From assembly GCF_965363235.1 (NCBI RefSeq), contig NC_134847.1:75894268-75958267 (forward strand): 64,000 bases of DNA, read 5' to 3'. This stretch comes from Mytilus galloprovincialis (lineage: Eukaryota > Mollusca > Bivalvia > Mytilida > Mytilidae). Every line of letters starts with the position of its first letter. The stretch's first letter is position 1. Shown here in pieces: positions 6,480-22,440 of the stretch. The position numbers and the translations under genes were made by a program. Below the pieces are notes generated by a model. It was given only the letters and a program-made list of their open reading frames with translations. It did no database searches and was not told the DNA's origin.

Positions 6480-7405
6480 CAAGTGTGGACAAAATCATAT
6501 ATAAACTATTATAATATTATTACACAATTCATTATGTTCCAGATATGTTACATGTATATCAAATGTCAAAATATATATTTCACGAGTCACTGATTATAAA
6601 TTGAGGTTAAAAAATTTCTTTAAAGAAGATAGCAGATATTTAGAGTATATAAAACTGATATACTACAACAGATATCGCAGGTGAAATGACCGCATAGGCT
6701 AATGTTTAAGACAGTTATTAGTTCCTTTGATGACACTGCAGTCCAAGGAAAAATTTGTAAACAACATCAACACAACATCTACAATGAAATGTTGTATATC
6801 ATGATGCACTAGTTGATATTCCATCCTGTATTCCAGTTTCACTCTCTGAAATGATTTTAAAATATTTTCCAAATTGACCACACTGACATCCGACTCTTCC
6901 AATAAAAGACAAAATAGAGAACAACAATAGATGGCCTGACTTAGCACCAACAGTGATTGGTTTGAATAAGAAGTCTTTTGTAATCTCCAATATGTTTTAG
7001 TAATAGCTGTTATTCTTTTTATGAATTTATAAAGATTAACAATGCTTTATAATAAAAAGAAAAAAATCAAGATTGTAGAGCTAAATTTACCTCTTTATAT
7101 ACCAAGGTAGCAAAAAGGGTAGAGGCAGTAGATACAGTATACCAAAATAGATATTCGAAATCCAACTGATATCGCCATCGTAAAACAAAAAGAGAAAACT
7201 ACGAAAAATACGGTTTAAAAACAAGTGAAACTGCGAGATACTGCTCATTGATGATACCCCCGCCGCAAGTGGATAATTTTAATAGTGTAAAAATAGGTAA
7301 GTAATTGATAAACAGGAAGTTGTTGAGTGATGAATATGAAAATGCATTCATATTACATCATTCAGTTTTCATTCTAGATATGCTTTTGACATGAATAATC
7401 CTTAC
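6480..7405. other. No gene seen
   Basis: Several short overlapping ORFs on the minus strand around 6700-6990 have no domain and no conserved paralogue. I treat the stretch as non-coding. Confidence 0.4.
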
Positions 7406-7407
7406 AA

Positions 7408-7618
7408 GTGCCACATGTGGAGCAGGATCTGCTTACCCTTCTGGAGCACCTGAGATCACCCCTACTTTTGATGGGGTTCGGGTTGCTTATTCTTAAGTTT
7501 TCTATGTTGTGTCATGTGTACTAATGTTTGTCTGTTTGTCTTTTTAGTTTTAGTGTTGTCAGTTTATTTTCTATTTATGCGTTTGACTGTCCCTCTGGTA
7601 TCATTCGTTCCTCTTTTA
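7408..7618 (+). mobile_element. 3' tail of a Penelope-like retroelement (tail family A)
   Basis: Begins agtgccacatgtggagcagg and continues through the same sequence found at 42483-42708, 50049-50268 and 57927-58085. At 50049 this tail directly follows the end of a reverse-transcriptase element, which identifies it as that family's 3' end. Here only the tail is present, so it is a 5'-truncated old copy. Confidence 0.65.
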
Positions 7619-7904
7619 CAAACTAAATATTATAATTAATTTGTATTATCGGTAGTTTGAAGAAAAAATCTTTATTATAAAAGAAAAAATCAATCCTATC
7701 GATATACACAACATTTTTCATTTCACAATTTGTCTGTATATCATCATATGATCATTTGTTTATTTGTTTGAGATTTGTTAAAAAACTTTTCGGGTTTTTT
7801 TTTTAATTTTCCTCAGAGTTCTGTGGGTTTTTTTTCTTGAAATATGTTTATGCAAATGAATATTTCCACAATTTACAGTTTTGCCTAGGATCTAGGGTGT
7901 AGTG

Positions 7905-8190
7905 TATGAGTGGCCGTTCGTGTTATTGGCGGTATGAACATACCGTATGAAATTTTCAACGCGTTGGTTTTTGTTATCAACGCGTTGATTTTTACTTTCA
8001 ACGCGTTGGTTTTACTTTCAACGCGTTGGTTTTCAATTTCACCGCGTTGGTCTTCACTTTCAACGTGTTGATTCGTAATTCATACGGTATGAAAAACCAA
8101 CGCGTTGGTTTTCAATTCCATACCGTAGGTTTTTCCTTCCATACCGTAAGTTTTGTACTTTTGTCAACCAATCAAAATGTTTGTTACAAA
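7905..8190 (+). repeat. Left terminal inverted repeat with palindromic-word array
   Basis: Order: TATGAGTGGCCG..., the inverted pair GGTATG-aa-CATACC, then six forward units of the type actttcaacgcgttggtttt (alternating actttc and ttatc/aattt spacers). Next comes attcatacggtatg, then one more CCAACGCGTTGG, then ccataccgta twice, and finally a non-repeated part matching the right end to about 8190. The 12-bp word CCAACGCGTTGG is its own reverse complement, as expected for a dimeric DNA-binding site. Confidence 0.8.
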
Positions 8191-8402
8191 ATATTTTCTA
8201 AAAAACTCATTAATTTCCCTAACAAACTAATTTCCCATAGGTATTAATACACTATAGTAATATGCTATACAAACAATAACTTTATTTGTTTTAGCATGTT
8301 AAACTAACTCTAGTAACTCTAAGACATAAAATAGTAACTTGATATTAAAACCTTAATTATAATGGATGATTTGTGGAGAAAAGTGCAACAAAACATTGCT
8401 TT

Positions 8403-8671
8403 TATGGTACTTGTTATAGTGATTCACGTTATACACACAAAGATTACATAGAGAAGTGGAATTTATAAGATTTCCAAAGCCATGGATGGACAGAGAAAAA
8501 TGCACAAGATGGATACATGCATGTAGAGGAGAATGCTTTACAACTGTCAGAGTTAAAAAGAATACATACATATGCAGTAAACATTTTGTTGGTGGAAAAG
8601 TTCCTATAGATGCTGACCCTGATCCATTCCTGCTACCACTTCTCCAAGTGATATATGTGAATATATTCTAG
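8403..8671 (+). pseudogene. THAP-type zinc finger fragment, frameshifted
   Basis: Reading from 8403 gives YGTCYSDSRYTHKDYIEKW; a shift of frame near 8456 then gives EFIRFPKPWMDREKCTRWI, and further on TYICSKHFVGGKVP and DADPDPFLLP. The Cys...Cys-x2-His layout, the FPKP motif and the final proline-rich end are those of THAP-like DNA-binding domains in invertebrate transposon proteins. The domain is at the N-terminus of such proteins; nothing that looks like a transposase core follows before 9128. Broken by at least one frameshift. It probably once recognised the palindromic words in the element's ends (inference). Confidence 0.65.
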
Positions 8672-9127
8672 TATTTGTTGATTATTTTTTTCTGATCATT
8701 AAGCAGAACAAACTATGTAGTCAAAATGCATCAAATTAGTCATGTGATTTATAAAAAAAAAACGATTAAATAAATTTACTATTAATGTTTTTGTTTCTTT
8801 TGAATAAATTGTATTCTTTATTGTAGTACTTTGATTTTTTATTTGATTGACTTTATTTAAATTAACACCACAACAAGAAGCAAGCATCAAGGACATTACA
8901 AAATACAGTATTCAATCGAAAAAATGAAAAAATACAGATTCCTTCAAAAAAAATTGTACCATCATCGCTCCAGCAAGTGTTTTCACAGGTGATTTTTATA
9001 ATTGGTTGTCTTGTTATTTCCAGGAGCCACTTGTGCAATAAATATATGTACAATAATCTCATAATTTTTATAATGTGTCAGATAAACATAAAATGAGAAA
9101 GAAATTACAAAGGTTTTTGTCATGCAT

Positions 9128-9920
9128 ATAAATAAAGGCAACAGTAGTATACCGCTGTTCAAAACTCATAAATCCATGGACAAAAAACAAAAACGGGGTA
9201 ACAAACTAAAACCGAGGGAAACGCACTAAACATAAGAGGAGAACAACGACACAACACTAAAATGTAACACACACAGAAACGGACCAAGCATCAGACAAAA
9301 TCCAACGAGAATAACAAATATAACATCAAAATATAATAATGGCAATAAGAAATGTAAAACAAACATTTAAAAGGAAAAATGTATATTCTTCATGTTAAAA
9401 TCAACTATTCTGGTAAATCGAAAGGAGGTAATTCTCTAGGTATTATAAATCTGATCCCAAAATAATCCGGACAAAGACGAGTGTGGTGAAATTTAACGAG
9501 TTTCTTGGCCAAGCTTTCCCAGAACACTTTAAAAAAAATTATTATTAAAAAAAAATGTCAGATTCAGACCAAACAAAAGATTACTTCACCTCAGTCCCAT
9601 TGTTTCAATTGCAACTGAATTTGAAAATAGTATTCATGATTTCTTTCTAACCTTATTTGGCGACTGAATAAGTGGTCAAGGCAAAAATTTGTTAGTTGAG
9701 ATTTTGATAAATATTTCTCATAGTCTTTTACGCAACACTTTTAAAGCATAAGCGGATATTTTATTTTCACCAAACTAAAATCATCTTCTTTATTAACAGA
9801 AACACCCCTCACTAATCCATCCGGACGTTGACCTATAGCTGCTAATGTCTGTTTCATTTTGGTCTCTTGTGCATGGTTGTCTCATTGGCAATCATACCAC
9901 ATCTTCTTTTTATATATATG
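9128..9920. repeat. Mussel dispersed repeats nested inside the TIR transposon
   Basis: The left part (9128-9400) begins aaataaaggcaacagtagta and contains taacaaactaaaaccgaggg and acaacgacacaacac; the same family appears at 14400-14475 and 14665-14765 (reversed), 18135-18215 (reversed), 52060-52690 and 56045-56130 (reversed). The right part (about 9835-9920) ends with tgtctcattggcaatcatac, a tail also seen at 12590-12795, 38520-38580, 41555-41700 and 55598-55740. No coding capacity. Confidence 0.6.
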
Positions 9921-9953
9921 CAAGCAAGCTTTGGGTATTTCGAATTAAACCTA

Positions 9954-10704
9954 TTAACAACATTGTGCAACTTCTAGTAAAGGAGATTGTTTTTGCTTCA
10001 TTAATGCGTACTCTTTTATAGCATCATTCTCATGCTCGATTTCACAAGTCATAGCTCTTGTTGTCATTGGATCAGTTTTATTCATAGTTTTCTGCAGTTT
10101 ATTAAACACTGAAGATTCTTTCTTTAGCGTTGATACAGACTTTGCATTTGATGATGTTATCCTCATTGCTCTCTAGTGGAACCATTTATCAATTTTCTGA
10201 TTTTCAACTATTTCAAATGGCACATCAATACCATATGCAGATAAGTCATGCAACAACTCTGTTCGTTTTGTCTCCAGATACATTTTTTTGTCGATACTCA
10301 TTTCATAGTCTTCATAATTGTAAGTAAGCACAGTGAAACACATAGTTTTTCCACAATAATGATATTGTAAAGTTGTAAAATAAAACATTTTCTCCTTCAC
10401 ATCAGTTTTCAGTGAAGGAGGACGTGGGTCAAATTAAACAAATGTGTCCACTTTCTTTTTCTTTCCCCCTATGTATGTAGAGTCAGTCACCTTTTTTGGA
10501 GTCTTTCTTTTTCTTTCGCCCTACGTTCCATTTACACCTTCTGAATGTGCAAGAAGCTTGATCTGTACCAAACTGATGTGCATATTCTAAAAGAGCATAT
10601 AAAACTGCTGCTACATGACTACATCTCCCAAGGAAAAACTTGCATGAACGAGTATGCAACTTTGATAGTTTAATGCCATTGTTTGAAATTAAATAGAAAC
10701 ACAT
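9954..10704 (-). pseudogene. SWIM zinc finger / YqaJ-like exonuclease gene, broken
   Basis: Read on the minus strand: SCKFFLGRCSHVAAVLYALL (10704-10483) is a SWIM finger with the C-x-H pair, though the first Cys of the usual CxC is Arg. It is followed by CTFRRCKWNVGRKKKK. Then comes FDPRPPSLKTDV leading into the 10400-10173 segment, and TTRAMTCEIEHENDAIKEYA (10166-9954), which resembles the conserved helix of YqaJ-family nucleases. The order SWIM - DPRPP - YqaJ matches proteins common in molluscs and cnidarians. Stops separate the three segments, and the catalytic C-terminal half is missing, replaced by the nested repeat. Likely an accessory gene of the surrounding transposon. Confidence 0.65.
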
Positions 10705-10954
10705 AACGTGTAAACTATAGAAAAATTTGGCTGATAATGAGAGGCCAAATAAATTTTATTCCCTTATTCCCGGGTTACATGTACCAATAACTCACACTAC
10801 TGTAAATTTAGTGTAAATTCTTAATTATATATAAATAGCATATAATTTTAAATGTAGCAAGTCAATTAGTATCTTCAACAACGTTACATATATATTTCCC
10901 CACCAAACATAACAACAATCCGGAGTCCGTCCGAACGGTTGACAAGATTTTACT

Positions 10955-11261
10955 TTGTTACAAAGATGTTGATTGGTAGACAGAAGTGGCAATTTTACGT
11001 TATGGAATTGAAAACCAACGCGTTGGTTTTTTATACCGTATGAATTACGAACCAACGCATTGAAAGTGAAAACCAACGCGTTGAAAGTAAAACTAACGCA
11101 TTGAAAATAAAAACCAACGCGTTGATAATACACACCAACGCGTTGAAAGTAAAAACCAACGCGTTGATAATAAAAACCAACGCGTTGAAAGTAAAAACCC
11201 AACGGGTTGAAAATTTCATACGGTATGTTCATACCGACAATGACACGAACGGCCACTCATA
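10955..11261 (-). repeat. Right terminal inverted repeat with palindromic-word array
   Basis: Reverse complement of the left end with the same block order, but eight forward palindromic units before the tacggtat block instead of six, so the arrays differ by two units. The apparent ORFs across this array (10825-11256 and 11031-11219) are simply translations of the 20-bp repeat. Confidence 0.8.
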
Positions 11262-11267
11262 GTAGTG

Positions 11268-12590
11268 CTGCTATACAAAAAATATCAATCTAGAAATATA
11301 TAAGTATTTAATATGAAACCAATGTTCACGTCTTTAACAATTGCTTAAAACTAAATACAATCAACTTACGAAGCCTGGAGGGGGTCACCAGCCCAGTTCA
11401 GACATTTCCAATCTCGTATTGATACATTTCGTTCATAATATTGCATGAAATCTTATAAAATTCTAAAAAAATATTGACTTTTAACTTCAATATTTTCTTC
11501 ATCAACGTACAGTAACATAGAGTATTATAGCTGCCAAAATTTAAATTCATATTAATTACACTTTTTCTGCGTCTGACACAGTTTTTGGAAATGATATTTA
11601 ATCAATTTCAAACATCAGTTCGTTTTGTGGACGAAACGCTCGTCTGGCGTAACATCATGTTATCTATTATGAGTTTATTTTCGTTGTGTTATAAATATGA
11701 GTAAGTAGGGTCATCATATCATAAAAAATCAACTTTTTTGATGAAATGAAACGATTAAATATTGGACCCTTTTGACGTTAATGTGAACCAATTGACAACA
11801 AATGGAAGTGTTTAACGACCTTGACTGGCTATACAGCCCTTGCACGGTCGGACCAATGGAAAATGAGAATCAGAATTTGAAAATTAGATTTACTGTAAGA
11901 TTTAGTATATAAAAGAACCCCCAAAATTATTTTTTTATTAAAATCAAAAAAGAAAAAGGTTAATTTGCCTCCCTTTTTAACATCAAACCTTGCGGTACAA
12001 TAGTTATCAAAGGTACCAGGATTATAATTTAGTACCCCAGACAATTTCATAGAGATTCATAGACTTATACTCAATTTATTGTCCTGAAACCAATTTCAAA
12101 TAGATCAATATATTTATACTCAAGTTATTGTCTGGAAACCAAATGTCTTTAGACGACGGAAAAATCATCGTCATGTCATAATGCGACCACAAAGCTAACT
12201 TTAACTTCACTTCCTCAAACAAGATGCAAGACAAACAATGTAACAACTACTTGCTAAACATTTTTTTTAATTTTCATAGGTAATTATAAGTAATGTATCT
12301 TTCAAAAGTAAGCTTGAAATGTTGTTGTTGTTGAATAATGTCGGTCATATTCGTTTTAGTCAATTGTCTTGTTATAAATTAGATCTTTTGTTTTCCTGGT
12401 AAACAGTTACACATTTTTCATGTTGGGAACTTTTATATCTAATTCAATTTTACAAGGTTTTCTTATTATTGAAGGCTATACTTAAAAACAAAAACCTTAA
12501 ACTGATTCAAATTATGATGAATCGTTATGTCATTGAAAATTATACCATTGTCATTTGTTGATGTGTTGAATATTTGTTTTTCGTTCATTT
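11268..12590. other. Duplicated flank continuing after the transposon, no gene seen
   Basis: From 11268 (ctgctatacaaaaaatat) the sequence again follows copy 2 (20371 onward) for several hundred bases, including cctacgaagcctagaggagg-like sequence. A partial gacgaaacgctcgtctggcg repeat sits near 11628-11690. A roughly 50-bp direct repeat (tatactcaatttattgtc / tatactcaagttattgtc) lies at about 12065-12145. No gene is seen. Confidence 0.45.
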
Positions 12591-17800: not shown

Positions 17801-20370
17801 GTCTCACTTTCGGGCGTGTAAACTTTCATAAACTTTTCAAAGTTGTTTTTTTCTTAGCAAAATAGTTTATCTCCTTGATTAAACTTACTTGTCACAACAT
17901 TCGCGGTGAATAGTTCGGTTAAATATTCTTTGCAACAGATTTTTATCACTTAGAAATTTCTTATGTCGCTTATTTTATTTTAACTTTTCAATCACCTGTC
18001 TAGACCAGTGTAGACAAAATTTAAAGTTCGATCGCTCATTGGTGAATTCATCTGCTAAATATGGTTTGCTCACAGTTTTTTACCTGTTTTAATTAGTTTT
18101 GTACTATCGTCTTATATTCATCGACTTCCTTGTTTTAGTTTGTTACCCCAATTTTGTTTTTTGTCCATACATTTACGAGTTTTGAACAACGGTATACTAC
18201 TGTTGCCTTTATTTGTGTACCCAATCGGTTACAAGTTTCAGATTTTTTCGTCATTTTCATGTGCTTTCTAACAAATGTTAAAAAAATTGAAAGAATTTCA
18301 ATATTAATATTTATTTTTTTAAATGTTACTGTTTGAAATCTTCAATAAAGGAGAAAATTCTGCAGAAAGCACATGAAATCGTCGAACCGAGTTCTTACAT
18401 TTTGCCTTTAAATGAACAAATCTCCAGTTTCGAATCCATACATTTTTCTTGAAGAGGCATTAGCTGTCAAATTTATGATTACCGATTTCACTCAAATTAT
18501 CATATATGATTTATTACATGCTTAAATGATATCCGAATTTCACAAAAAGTCTAAATTAAATATTTAACAATACATTGACACTAAAATATGTATAAAAATT
18601 TCGTGCGACTTTTTGTTTAGACGTCATCTAATTAACTATCTAGATGACCTTTGATGACTGTCCACGGTCTTATAACCCGATTTAAACTTGAATACATTTA
18701 TTAACAAATACCGGACATGTGCTATTGGATTTTTCTAGGTCTGTTTGATTTCATTTGGTAAGTCACAAGTATATTTATGATCGAGTTTATGTGTATAAAA
18801 ATAGTTATTTGGATCGAATTATTCAACTGAATGGTTCGTCTTTTATATCGTCAACTATTTTCTATTTCGTAGCTAATGACCTTTAAAAACAATACACATG
18901 TATGTTATTGATAAATTTCTGTTTTATGATAGAAAAATATAAATTCGTCATCGACATGTTTTTACACTATGCTGTATTCAAAATTGTGTTCTAGGTGAAA
19001 AGTTATCAAAAACGTCGAAATAAGCATAACGACATCGCTTTATAGACCGTACAACATGGAGTGTGTATGGTTTTTTTTTCGATATTCATTTGAAGTTCAA
19101 CGAGCAAAAGATGTATGCACAAATCCCACAATCTGTAACTTTGACCCTTTACTTTTACTTGACATTAAATCCTTTACTGCTTTTAATTTTCAAAAAATGT
19201 TCCATTTATGATGAAACAATTATGTTGAATGCCTCGTTGTGACGTTGAAACGAAAACAGCGATAAAATTGTTTTTCTTTTGCTTTTAATTTTGTACACAT
19301 ACTGATTTTATTCATCCTTTTTTTTCTCTATTGCATTTACCGTTTTAAGGAAGTTTCGTCTTTCTTTTTACATGTTTTTGATAAATATTTACTTATCACC
19401 GACGTATAATAAACGCAGTATAACTTCTTTTTCAGAATTTCAAAAAATGATAGGAAACCCAAACTTTGGAGTAACGCATCACCTTGAAGATGGTTTGAAT
19501 GCTGCCTGAATGTTCCGTTTTGAATTTTGCTCAGAGTTCGGATTTTTTGTTAATTTTTTCTCTCCCTATTTTCTACACAAGGAAATACATGTACCAAGAA
19601 ATTGACTTCACCGTTATTTTCCATTCGTTTGATTTTTTTAGTTCTTGATTTTCCCATTTGATTAATGACTTTTCATTTTGAATTTTCAATGGAGGTCGGT
19701 AGTATTGCTATTTTACTTTTGTTGCTTCAAAAAGAATAGAAATAGAACGTTCGCAGTTTTAAAGCTGAAATTGTATGTTTTGTCATAACGTTTGGTTGTC
19801 AGTTTCTCAGTTCCAATTTCTAGATGCAGGTCAAAATATGACGTAGACTTCATGATAAACGTTTGGGTGTGCTTTTCAAAAACACATTCATCCTTTATAT
19901 AGGAAGCAACTGTGCTTCTATTTTCGCTTCGAGATTATAAAAATAATATAGGTTCATAGTTTTACTTAACGTGCTCCTATAAAGATGATGACCTCGTACT
20001 AAAAAAGTAAGGCTACTGTGTTGAACGCACCCATTCCAGTACAATGAAATAAACGATTTCTGAAGAAAGTAATAAATATGTTATCAATCAGTAATAAACT
20101 AACATCCAATGACAAACTAAATAGTATCATACATTTGAATTAACGGTAGTTTGAAAATAAGCTTTTTTCAAAAAAGAAAAATTCAATCCAAGCGATATAC
20201 ATATCCTTTTTTGCAAAGTTCGATTCACAATTTGTTTGTTTATCATCATATGCTGTCATGCGTTTGATTTGTTTGATTTTCCTTTCTGTATTTTTATTTT
20301 ACTCGAAATATGTTTATTCAAACGTATATTTCCACAATTTACAGTTTCACTTAGGATCTAGGATGTGGTG
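17801..20370. other. Upstream flank of LRR copy 2; carries empty transposon sites
   Basis: Matches copy 1 in blocks: 17801-18140, about 18220-18815, 18824-19170 and 20090-20370. It contains the single GAATTATT (18816-18823) and the single GTGGTG (20365-20370) that mark unoccupied insertion sites. A reversed ccgctgttc-type mussel repeat is inserted at about 18135-18215, where copy 1 is different. No gene is seen; about 19200-20080 has no match in the window. Confidence 0.6.
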
Positions 20371-22440
20371 CTGCTATACAAAATATATAAATCTAAAAAT
20401 AGATTAGTTTTTAATATTTAACAAATGTTCATAGTCTTCTACAATTGCGTTAAAATAAATAAAACCTACGAAGCCTAGAGGAGGTCACCATCCCAGTAGT
20501 TAGCACTTCTGTGTTGACATGTATTATCATAAGTATACTCATAGTTATAGATTTACAAAACTTGAAATATTTCGAGGATTATTTTTTTTCCAGGAAGAGA
20601 TGATAACCTTAGCTAAATTTGCCAAAAGCTTTCGAACTTGAAATGTTGGTCTATGGATTTTTCAATTAATTTATGTTTATATTTTACCTTCAACAATCTA
20701 TAGTTCTATTTGGCACGTAAAAGATTGCTTCGGGAGGGCGCAGATGTTCTACTAGATTTCACAATCAACTTTCGAAAACATTAAAAAGACAGGAACGGAC
20801 AAGACATTGACAATCCCGAATTGATTCATGTCGTTGATGATGTTGCATTAAATCTTGACTTTTAACTTGGAAATAGTTGTGACCTAGATTATTAAAGCTT
20901 GTAAAATTGTACATTTTAATATTTTATTTCTGCGTCTGTTACAGTTTGAAATATTATATTTAATCTTATTTTAAAATCAGTAACATGTGGAATAAATCTG
21001 GATCTCTGTTCTACTACGAAAGCTGTCAGCTAAATACGAATTTCTTCTTGTTTAATATATTCAAATATCGGATAATACGATTCTGTGGTCAAACTACTTA
21101 AAGTAGGAATGTTAATTACTTTTAACTAAAATGGTTTGCTTATACTAATTACATTTTTAGTTTTTCAATCAGCTTTTCCTTTGGTCTGAGTGTCTTATTT
21201 AAGTTTCAAATGCATGTAACTATGTTATTTCTATAAATATATGTTACTTGCTAATTTCTTTTTTAATACAAAGATCTCAAGGTTAACTTGATTGTATTTA
21301 TTCGTGCTGACGTTCTAACATTTTATGTAAACTTGTATTAGTTTCTATTTAAATAACCATGAATCAATTCGATGACCCCTACCTACTTTCACTTATAAAT
21401 GCTTGTGTCGTATTCATAGATATTGGAAATGTATGTGTCTGTATGCAATGGACTATGCATCGCAATTATAGTTTGTCATAATTAGTTTTGAGCTAACTTG
21501 TGCTTGAAATGAAATCATGATTTATCGTTCCAGAGTAGCAAAACTACGTTTTTTATTAATAGCCGAAAATAGATCTATCATCAGGAATAAATAAAAAAAA
21601 AGCATAGATAGTCTTGGCCATATTTTGCTATTTCGCGTAACATGTGGTTTTTGATGTTCTACATATTTAATTAACATTCACAACTTCCATTCGAGCGCCA
21701 TTGGTAAGTTTCGTTTACCTAATAATAAGCTTGGTATCTTTGATGAATTCTTACACTATCTTTGAAAAAATGTTACATTCAAAATAAAAAGAAAATAGAT
21801 AATTCAGCGTTTTAATAAGAGGATTTAATTAATTCAAATACCAATAGTGACATCACTGAGCAAGGATTCGCATAGCCAGTGATAATGCATATCAATAGAC
21901 ACTTACTCTTTCGACGCATCTGATCATGCTCCTTTTTGTGTTCATGCTATTTGTGTTTGTTTCATTGATATGTCTTCTCAAACTATTTATTGTGATTAAA
22001 TATGACTTTGTTGATATTTGATTTGGTTTATTTTACCTTATAATTGTAGTAAATATTAATGTGATTATATATAGTAATGTTAAGGATCACTGTCCTAACA
22101 CGAATAAGTTGATCGTTCATACGATGACAAATGAGCATAGTACACTTATTGTCGTCACCCTATGAATATCATTGATACCAAATAGTTGCATTAGAAATTC
22201 CAATTCGAAAGTGTCAAACGATGTAAAATATACTTTCTAAGACACTGTTCCGATACGAGTTAATGTTGCTCAACACCTATGCATAAGAGATTCAATGTCA
22301 GAACACTCTAAAATTTAATGAGATTAAAAGTACCGTTATCATATCATATCGGCCTTCATCATATCGATACTTAAAATTATTAACTGCACAAAGACACGTT
22401 TTCTCAGACTGATTAATGCGCCTTTATATGATTTTATCGT
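20371..22440. other. End of duplicated flank and unassigned sequence
   Basis: Similarity to copy 1 continues to roughly 21000, with a partial dispersed repeat around 20480-20640 (cccagtagttagcacttctg). Beyond that I recognise nothing; no ORF exceeds chance length. Confidence 0.4.

Follow-up and report, generated by a model that had tools for sequence, protein, structure and literature searches.

A decayed transposon copy with remnants of ISL2EU-type genes and 6-bp target-site duplications in Mytilus galloprovincialis

Which transposase moved an element whose genes fit one group of transposons and whose ends fit another better is the question raised by positions 7905-11261 of a 64,000-nucleotide stretch of Mytilus galloprovincialis DNA (assembly GCF_965363235.1, contig NC_134847.1, positions 75,894,268 to 75,958,267 of the forward strand; the whole stretch is referred to here as the window). 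These positions hold a complete but decayed DNA-transposon insertion of 3357 bp, which starts with TATGAGTGGCCGTTCGTG, finishes with its complement and contains the remains of two convergent genes. Our preferred reading, to which we give a probability of about 0.55, is that it represents a non-autonomous, decayed copy from a cut-and-paste lineage characterized by an ISL2EU-type gene pair, TA..TA ends and 6-bp duplications.

The insertion and its family

The outer ends of the element match perfectly over 19 bp, with the first mismatch at position 20, and form part of inverted repeats of around 290 bp that extend inward to 8193 on the left and 10951 on the right, in pieces of 68-98 nt with 72-94% complementarity. 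The left repeat (7905-8193, plus strand), on the side of the THAP gene remnant described below, is made up of the 18-bp family end TATGAGTGGCCGTTCGTG, CATACCGTATG-type words and an array of CAACGCGTTG words, and the right repeat (10951-11261, minus strand), on the SWIM side, contains the same words in inverted order. The target-site duplication GTAGTG is present at 7899-7904 and again at 11262-11267, and an empty site with a single copy, GTGGTG, is found at 20365-20370, in a paralogous segment of the window; the two flanks joined without the insertion (7618-7904 and 11268-11397) align to 20112-20497 over 429 columns with 73% identity. An initial annotation of this locus, made from the sequence alone, had described a complete insertion with 19-bp ends, repeats of some 300 bp, the GTAGTG duplication and this empty site, all of which was confirmed. 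It had not recognised that the copy is defective.

The 18-bp end was searched in the host genome (G000, 1.38 Gb in large contigs) with up to two mismatches, giving 82 + 91 = 173 matches, as compared to 2 + 0 for the control. The termini of the family are TATGAGTGG..CCACTCATA, i.e. TATGAG..CTCATA, of the TA..TA type. Twenty stretches were fetched; L037 was completed from L055 and L056, the one-ended L052 and L053 were excluded, and with the window copy and L026 added, 20 copies with both ends were tabulated, leaving the alternative pairings L038in and L050out out of the count. The 6-bp duplication was exact in 12 of these copies and matched at five of six positions in another 6, the two without a match being L042 and L047, the latter with part of another end in its left flank. 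When flanks were swapped between copies, six matches were obtained in 0 of 380 cases and five matches in 1.6%. Two further copies with an exact 6-bp duplication bring the total to 20 of 22 (14 exact and 6 at five of six positions); one of the two, at C7:63555481-63580924, has 25.4 kb between two family ends and the exact duplication CAACTG. The shortest copy is L036, with 187 bp, and the longest is this one. The 20 tabulated duplications lean to S-W-T-A-W-S, a tendency read from the duplications themselves with no background control. No relatives with a 2-bp duplication, which the initial annotation had named as evidence that would speak against a 6-bp family, were seen with these ends.

Gene remnants and an intact relative

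The interior of the element is taken up by genes, and in the window copy the THAP reading begins approximately 170 bp inside the inverted repeat. A THAP-domain remnant with a broken frame occupies 8385-8692 on the plus strand (Pfam PF05485, E-value 2.1e-8 on 8423-8668; 1.4e-16 by tblastn with the intact THAP protein of the relative L078), followed on the same strand, at 8862-9042, by a broken remnant of a DDE_Tnp_4 C-terminus (tblastn with the DDE piece of the sister copy L046, 3.6e-9). Converging on them, the minus strand of 9606-10632 carries the remnant of a SWIM-YqaJ protein, also with a broken frame (tblastn with the intact L078 SWIM-YqaJ protein, 1.8e-17). Taken alone, the SWIM and YqaJ parts of the window copy are under the Pfam cut-off (0.066 and 0.19, respectively), and they are assigned on account of their homology to the L078 protein. 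The facing THAP and SWIM-YqaJ fragments had already been noted in the initial annotation. The DDE_Tnp_4 piece had gone unseen: Pfam does not detect it on window positions 8866-9093, and it was recognised only via L046, where a DDE_Tnp_4 C-terminus (PF13359, 4.5e-8, above the curated cut-off) comes directly after THAP on the same strand.

L078 (C10:4754400-4760900) is the nearest relative with open frames. It encodes a THAP protein (126 aa), then a protein with HTH_Tnp_4 and DDE_Tnp_4 domains (376 aa, 5.2e-45; HTH, helix-turn-helix), and, facing these, a SWIM-YqaJ protein (584 aa) in which YqaJ is recognised by Pfam at 3.9e-10 and SWIM, at 0.0046, is just under the cut-off. The convergent gene order is that of the window, and both its THAP and its SWIM-YqaJ match the window copy. 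From these homologies, the remnants in the window would derive from a gene pair of the ISL2EU type, in which the genes for a THAP-HTH-DDE_Tnp_4 transposase and a SWIM-YqaJ protein are convergent, which lends support to the earlier suggestion of an ISL2EU relative with unusual ends. L078 itself might be an ISL2EU pair that has been domesticated or that lacks ends. As a separate observation, many of the closest YqaJ matches are located on contig C11.

The catalytic part of the transposase is missing from the copies that retain genes. At an E-value threshold of 0.01 the L078 DDE protein has no tblastn match to the window, and it matches L046, L038 and a copy at 3.54 Mb of contig C12 only from residue 313-315 of 376 onward; neither the DDE core nor the HTH was matched in the four gene-bearing copies (the window copy, L046, L038 and the C12 copy). 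In the window, the core is absent from between the THAP and DDE matches, since the 170-bp gap is too small and no match was obtained there. Of the two features that had been proposed as checks on the family, a consistent 6-bp duplication and a DDE core, the first was found and the second was reduced to a C-terminus in the gene-bearing copies. The ratio of non-synonymous to synonymous substitution (dN/dS) between these copies was 0.62-1.82 in 12 comparisons, with THAP and DDE near neutral and SWIM/YqaJ mostly at 0.6-0.9, the L046-C12 value for YqaJ resting on a poor alignment.

Whether the gene set is native to the element can be approached through the regions lying just inside the two repeats (leaders), which differ between the THAP side and the SWIM side. 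L035, L044, L045 and L047 each have one THAP-side and one SWIM-side leader, though they show no THAP, DDE or YqaJ match, and L046 likewise has one leader of each kind; in L039, which holds a SWIM piece, the SWIM-side end is clear and the THAP-side end marginal. Because gene-less copies keep both leaders, the two-gene plan seems to be older than the gene-bearing subgroup, and the gene set is probably native to the element. Relatives without THAP and YqaJ had been regarded in the initial annotation as a potential argument against its proposal; such relatives do exist, for example the four just mentioned, yet these four look like deletion derivatives, given that both leaders are retained.

Two stretches of the window copy correspond to gaps in its alignment with L046 and were read as nested repeats: 9142-9560, a gap apart from short shared pieces, and 9827-9920, which L046 is without. 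Another gene-bearing copy, L038:282-9816, is 9.5 kb long and has a THAP-side end at either terminus; its pieces are mirrored around other repeats, and the element seems to have undergone a large inverted duplication.

Word arrays and CCAAT boxes in the ends

Inside the outer ends of the window copy, the CAACGCGTTG words are arranged in an array with a spacing of mostly 21 bp. In positions 19-450 of the ends there are 5 CG-holding 8-bp palindromes on the left and 6 on the right, as compared to means of 0.71 and 0.78 in shuffled sequences, and these counts were reached by 0 of 200 shuffles on each side. When all palindromes of at least 8 bp were considered in positions 19-320, the count was reached by 3 of 200 shuffles on each side; this version, which includes AT-only palindromes, is a weak test for AT-rich ends, and the CG-holding test is the one cited here. 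End-by-end tests were done with dinucleotide shuffles, with counts taken as beyond chance if reached in no more than 2 of 200. The roughly 20-bp palindromic unit reported in the initial annotation is borne out, with a step that is usually 21 bp. Across the genome, the pattern CAACGCGTTG-N{1,31}-CAACGCGTTG was found 159 times per strand, and its reversed control 0 times; the step between paired words was exactly 21 bp in 35 of 50 listed places and 20-22 bp in 41. It is also the commonest word spacing in the family copies, where it was counted 69 times.

Copies that share the 18-bp end use at least four types of word. The first consists of the CAACGCGTTG words of the window and its relatives, the second of TAACGCGTTA and TATCGCGATA (L040, L041, L043, L050), the third of TATACGCGTATA (L048, L049, L051) and the fourth of ATCGTGAT/ATCATGAT-type words, in an 11.8-kb copy at C1:92433856-92445703. 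Types 1 to 3 have a common ACGCGT core with different surrounding letters. Self-complementarity beyond chance, measured with CG-holding palindromes, was observed at 17 of 18 type-1 ends and 5 of 8 type-2 ends; it is shown for type 1 and partly for type 2, and is weak for type 3.

A second feature runs through all four word types: of 34 ends examined, 29 have CCAAT[CG] within positions 201-480 (3.2 expected from shuffles), usually just inward of the array. In the window the two CCAAT boxes are at the inner edges of the arrays, at 8168-8173 on the plus strand (element position 264) and at 10971-10976 on the minus strand (286 from the right end), where they may function as promoter elements.

Some copies with type-2 or type-3 words (TAACGCGTTA and TATACGCGTATA, respectively) contain pieces resembling reverse transcriptase, which we take to be Penelope-like, at L040:5106-5663, L048:626-1348, L049:2932-3435 and L051:1377-1664 and 6671-7093. 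The piece in L040, the sole one scanned, gave a weak match to Pfam RVT_1 (E 0.0028).

Candidate transposases and relation to known groups

Several observations weigh against our reading of the window element as a decayed copy from a lineage with an ISL2EU-type gene pair. No autonomous copy with TATGAGTGGCCGTT ends was found in the host genome, and every DDE match of at least 68% identity falls in one of three copies without the core, namely L046, L038 and the one on C12. THAP, DDE and YqaJ remnants were seen only in word type 1 (the window copy, L046, L038 and the C12 copy), with a SWIM piece in L039 and a THAP match also at C9:40094636; in the eight copies that use other words, neither THAP, DDE or YqaJ matches nor the leaders were seen. 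Within type 1, both L039 and L054 have one ambiguous end, and L038 departs from the pattern with its pair of THAP-side ends. In the 6.5 kb of L078 that were read, neither an inverted repeat nor a matching end was seen, so that the link between the gene set and the ends rests on defective copies. The dN/dS values prove neither neutral drift nor constraint. Self-complementarity exceeded chance at only 1 of 6 type-3 ends and 0 of 2 type-4 ends, the commonest type-4 word, ATCGTGAT, being only nearly palindromic, and a joint change of both half-sites consequently has good support in types 1 and 2 alone. Finally, PHIS elements, the superfamily that includes ISL2EU, are said to make 0-4-bp duplications (PMC10045372), and the ends fit IS3EU better than ISL2EU.

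The alternative that best survives, which we consider unlikely, is that an IS3EU-type (rve/IS481-like) transposase moves the family, and that an ISL2EU gene pair, captured by one ancestor, has since decayed and is carried by word type 1. IS3EU is described as always having TA..TA ends, usually 6-bp duplications and an rve-like transposase (PMC10045372). The absence of ISL2EU genes from the copies of other word types would agree with such a capture, as would the word arrays with a step of about 20-23 bp that are present by the gene in six of nine rve-type loci (L065, L069, L070, L072, L074 and L075, as opposed to L066, L071 and L073). However, none of the 65 scored rve/IS481-like matches (of 2265 candidates) came as close as 100 kb to any of the 106 ends listed, both lists being partial; Pfam scans of six-frame translations of L037, L039 and L046, the three copies scanned whole, revealed no rve domain; the end of the rve elements, where seen, is different (TGTAAG or TGTAGG beside TATATA); and the asymmetric leaders are common to copies without the genes. 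Given the lack of scored matches near the listed ends, an rve/IS481-like transposase is not favoured as owner of the family, the nine loci having been read in part.

Other candidates were set aside. The ends of L066, TAAGGCCGTTAG, have GGCCGTT in common with the window family, and were not used because the duplication is unclear. A MULE (Mutator-like element) transposase was proposed by a piece of L037 (PF10551, E 0.031, below cut-off), and was dropped because this piece belongs to a common repeat (150 scored matches of 1203 candidates) also found beside several rve matches. The THAP relatives L076 and L077 showed no inverted repeats with window-family ends, and no clear inverted repeat was found in L079 and L080 (beside C3:8830-8834 kb), which were searched for canonical ISL2EU ends.

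With respect to the arrays, it is somewhat more doubtful still that they work through DNA structure, as a hairpin or cruciform, or serve as methylation or chromatin signals rich in CpG, instead of being protein-binding sites. Self-complementarity and a CG are features of the commonest words, and among the 41 single-letter variants of AACGCGTT in the vicinity of type-1 ends, 15 carry a C>T or G>A change at one of its CpG positions, while the near-constant 21-bp step points to helical phasing. That an ISL2EU element was nested in an unrelated TATGAG element of another superfamily, both spreading as a unit, is very improbable, for even with ISL2EU-type pairs common in the genome (DDE and YqaJ matches no more than 3 kb apart in 23 places including L078, counted by inspection), neither the window copy nor L046 shows a clear inner inverted-repeat pair between its terminal repeats and its genes (the highest local scores being 11 and 12), and gene-less copies carry the same leaders.

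If, as we favour, the window element is a non-autonomous copy of a lineage with an ISL2EU-type gene pair, a full THAP-DDE transposase from another element would have moved such copies in trans by acting on the 18-bp end that they share, leaving a stagger of 6 bp. With their dyad symmetry and their spacing of two helical turns, the words could be sites for a dimeric DNA-binding protein, be it the THAP protein or the transposase, and a dimer bound to phased words might help bring the two ends together. Both convergent genes may be driven by the CCAAT boxes that lie immediately inward of the arrays, and words would differ between subfamilies since the site and its binding protein change together; a nuclease or repair role for the SWIM-YqaJ protein is suggested by its domain only. 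We tentatively propose, as a possibility that falls short of even odds, that these copies form a separate ISL2EU-type lineage in which a THAP-DDE_Tnp_4 transposase, partnered by SWIM-YqaJ, generates duplications of 6 bp in place of 2 bp, with helically phased, self-complementary arrays that switch letters between subfamilies, with half-sites staying matched; if so, they would provide a natural record of DNA-binding specificity shifting together with its sites. Duplication length serves as a marker of transposase type, and ISL2EU-type genes within ends that make 6-bp duplications would imply either that the PHIS stagger can be longer than described or that gene sets cross superfamilies, both of which bear on the classification of elements. 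The word types, which share a single outer end, also constitute a ready set for co-evolution tests between a DNA-binding protein and its sites.

Long, repeat-rich ends together with THAP are known in Galileo, and Rehavkus-type MuDR elements have long ends with tandem repeats. Their transposases differ, and duplications are of 7-8 bp in Galileo and P elements and about 9 bp in Rehavkus; the window family, with 6 bp, does not follow the 7-8-bp duplication of P elements and Galileo. ISL2EU elements, of the PHIS superfamily, have a THAP-HTH-DDE gene and a YqaJ gene, animal hosts, inverted repeats recorded at 6-259 bp, usually GG ends and a 2-bp AT duplication at A|AT|T, their ends and duplications being taken here from the literature (PMC4482050). 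The window family resembles them in YqaJ as the second gene and in its animal host; of the first gene it has THAP and DDE_Tnp_4 C-terminus remnants, the DDE core and HTH having no match in the four gene-bearing copies. It is unlike them in its word arrays, in ends that read TATGAG..CTCATA and in duplicating 6 bp; the mismatch in duplication length pointed out in the initial annotation holds for 20 of 22 copies. Since the gene set fits and the ends and duplication do not, the window element is not filed as an ISL2EU member. In the open-access literature, a body that does not include Repbase, no published ISL2EU element with 6-bp duplications or such arrays was found. With IS3EU and GingerRoot (PMC10045372) the family shares TA..TA termini and 6-bp duplications; their transposase is rve/IS3-IS481-like, a kind not found with the window-family ends in the lists and copies scanned, and the gene remnants of the window family are of the ISL2EU type. 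The six rve-type loci with arrays likewise have short words, about 20-23 bp apart, beside a gene, and differ in the words themselves (CAAATCTATGTCC, ATCGACGTCC), in their ends where these were seen and in their transposase. As six of the nine rve-type loci read have arrays of their own, ends of this array-like form either arose in both kinds of element or were retained by both.

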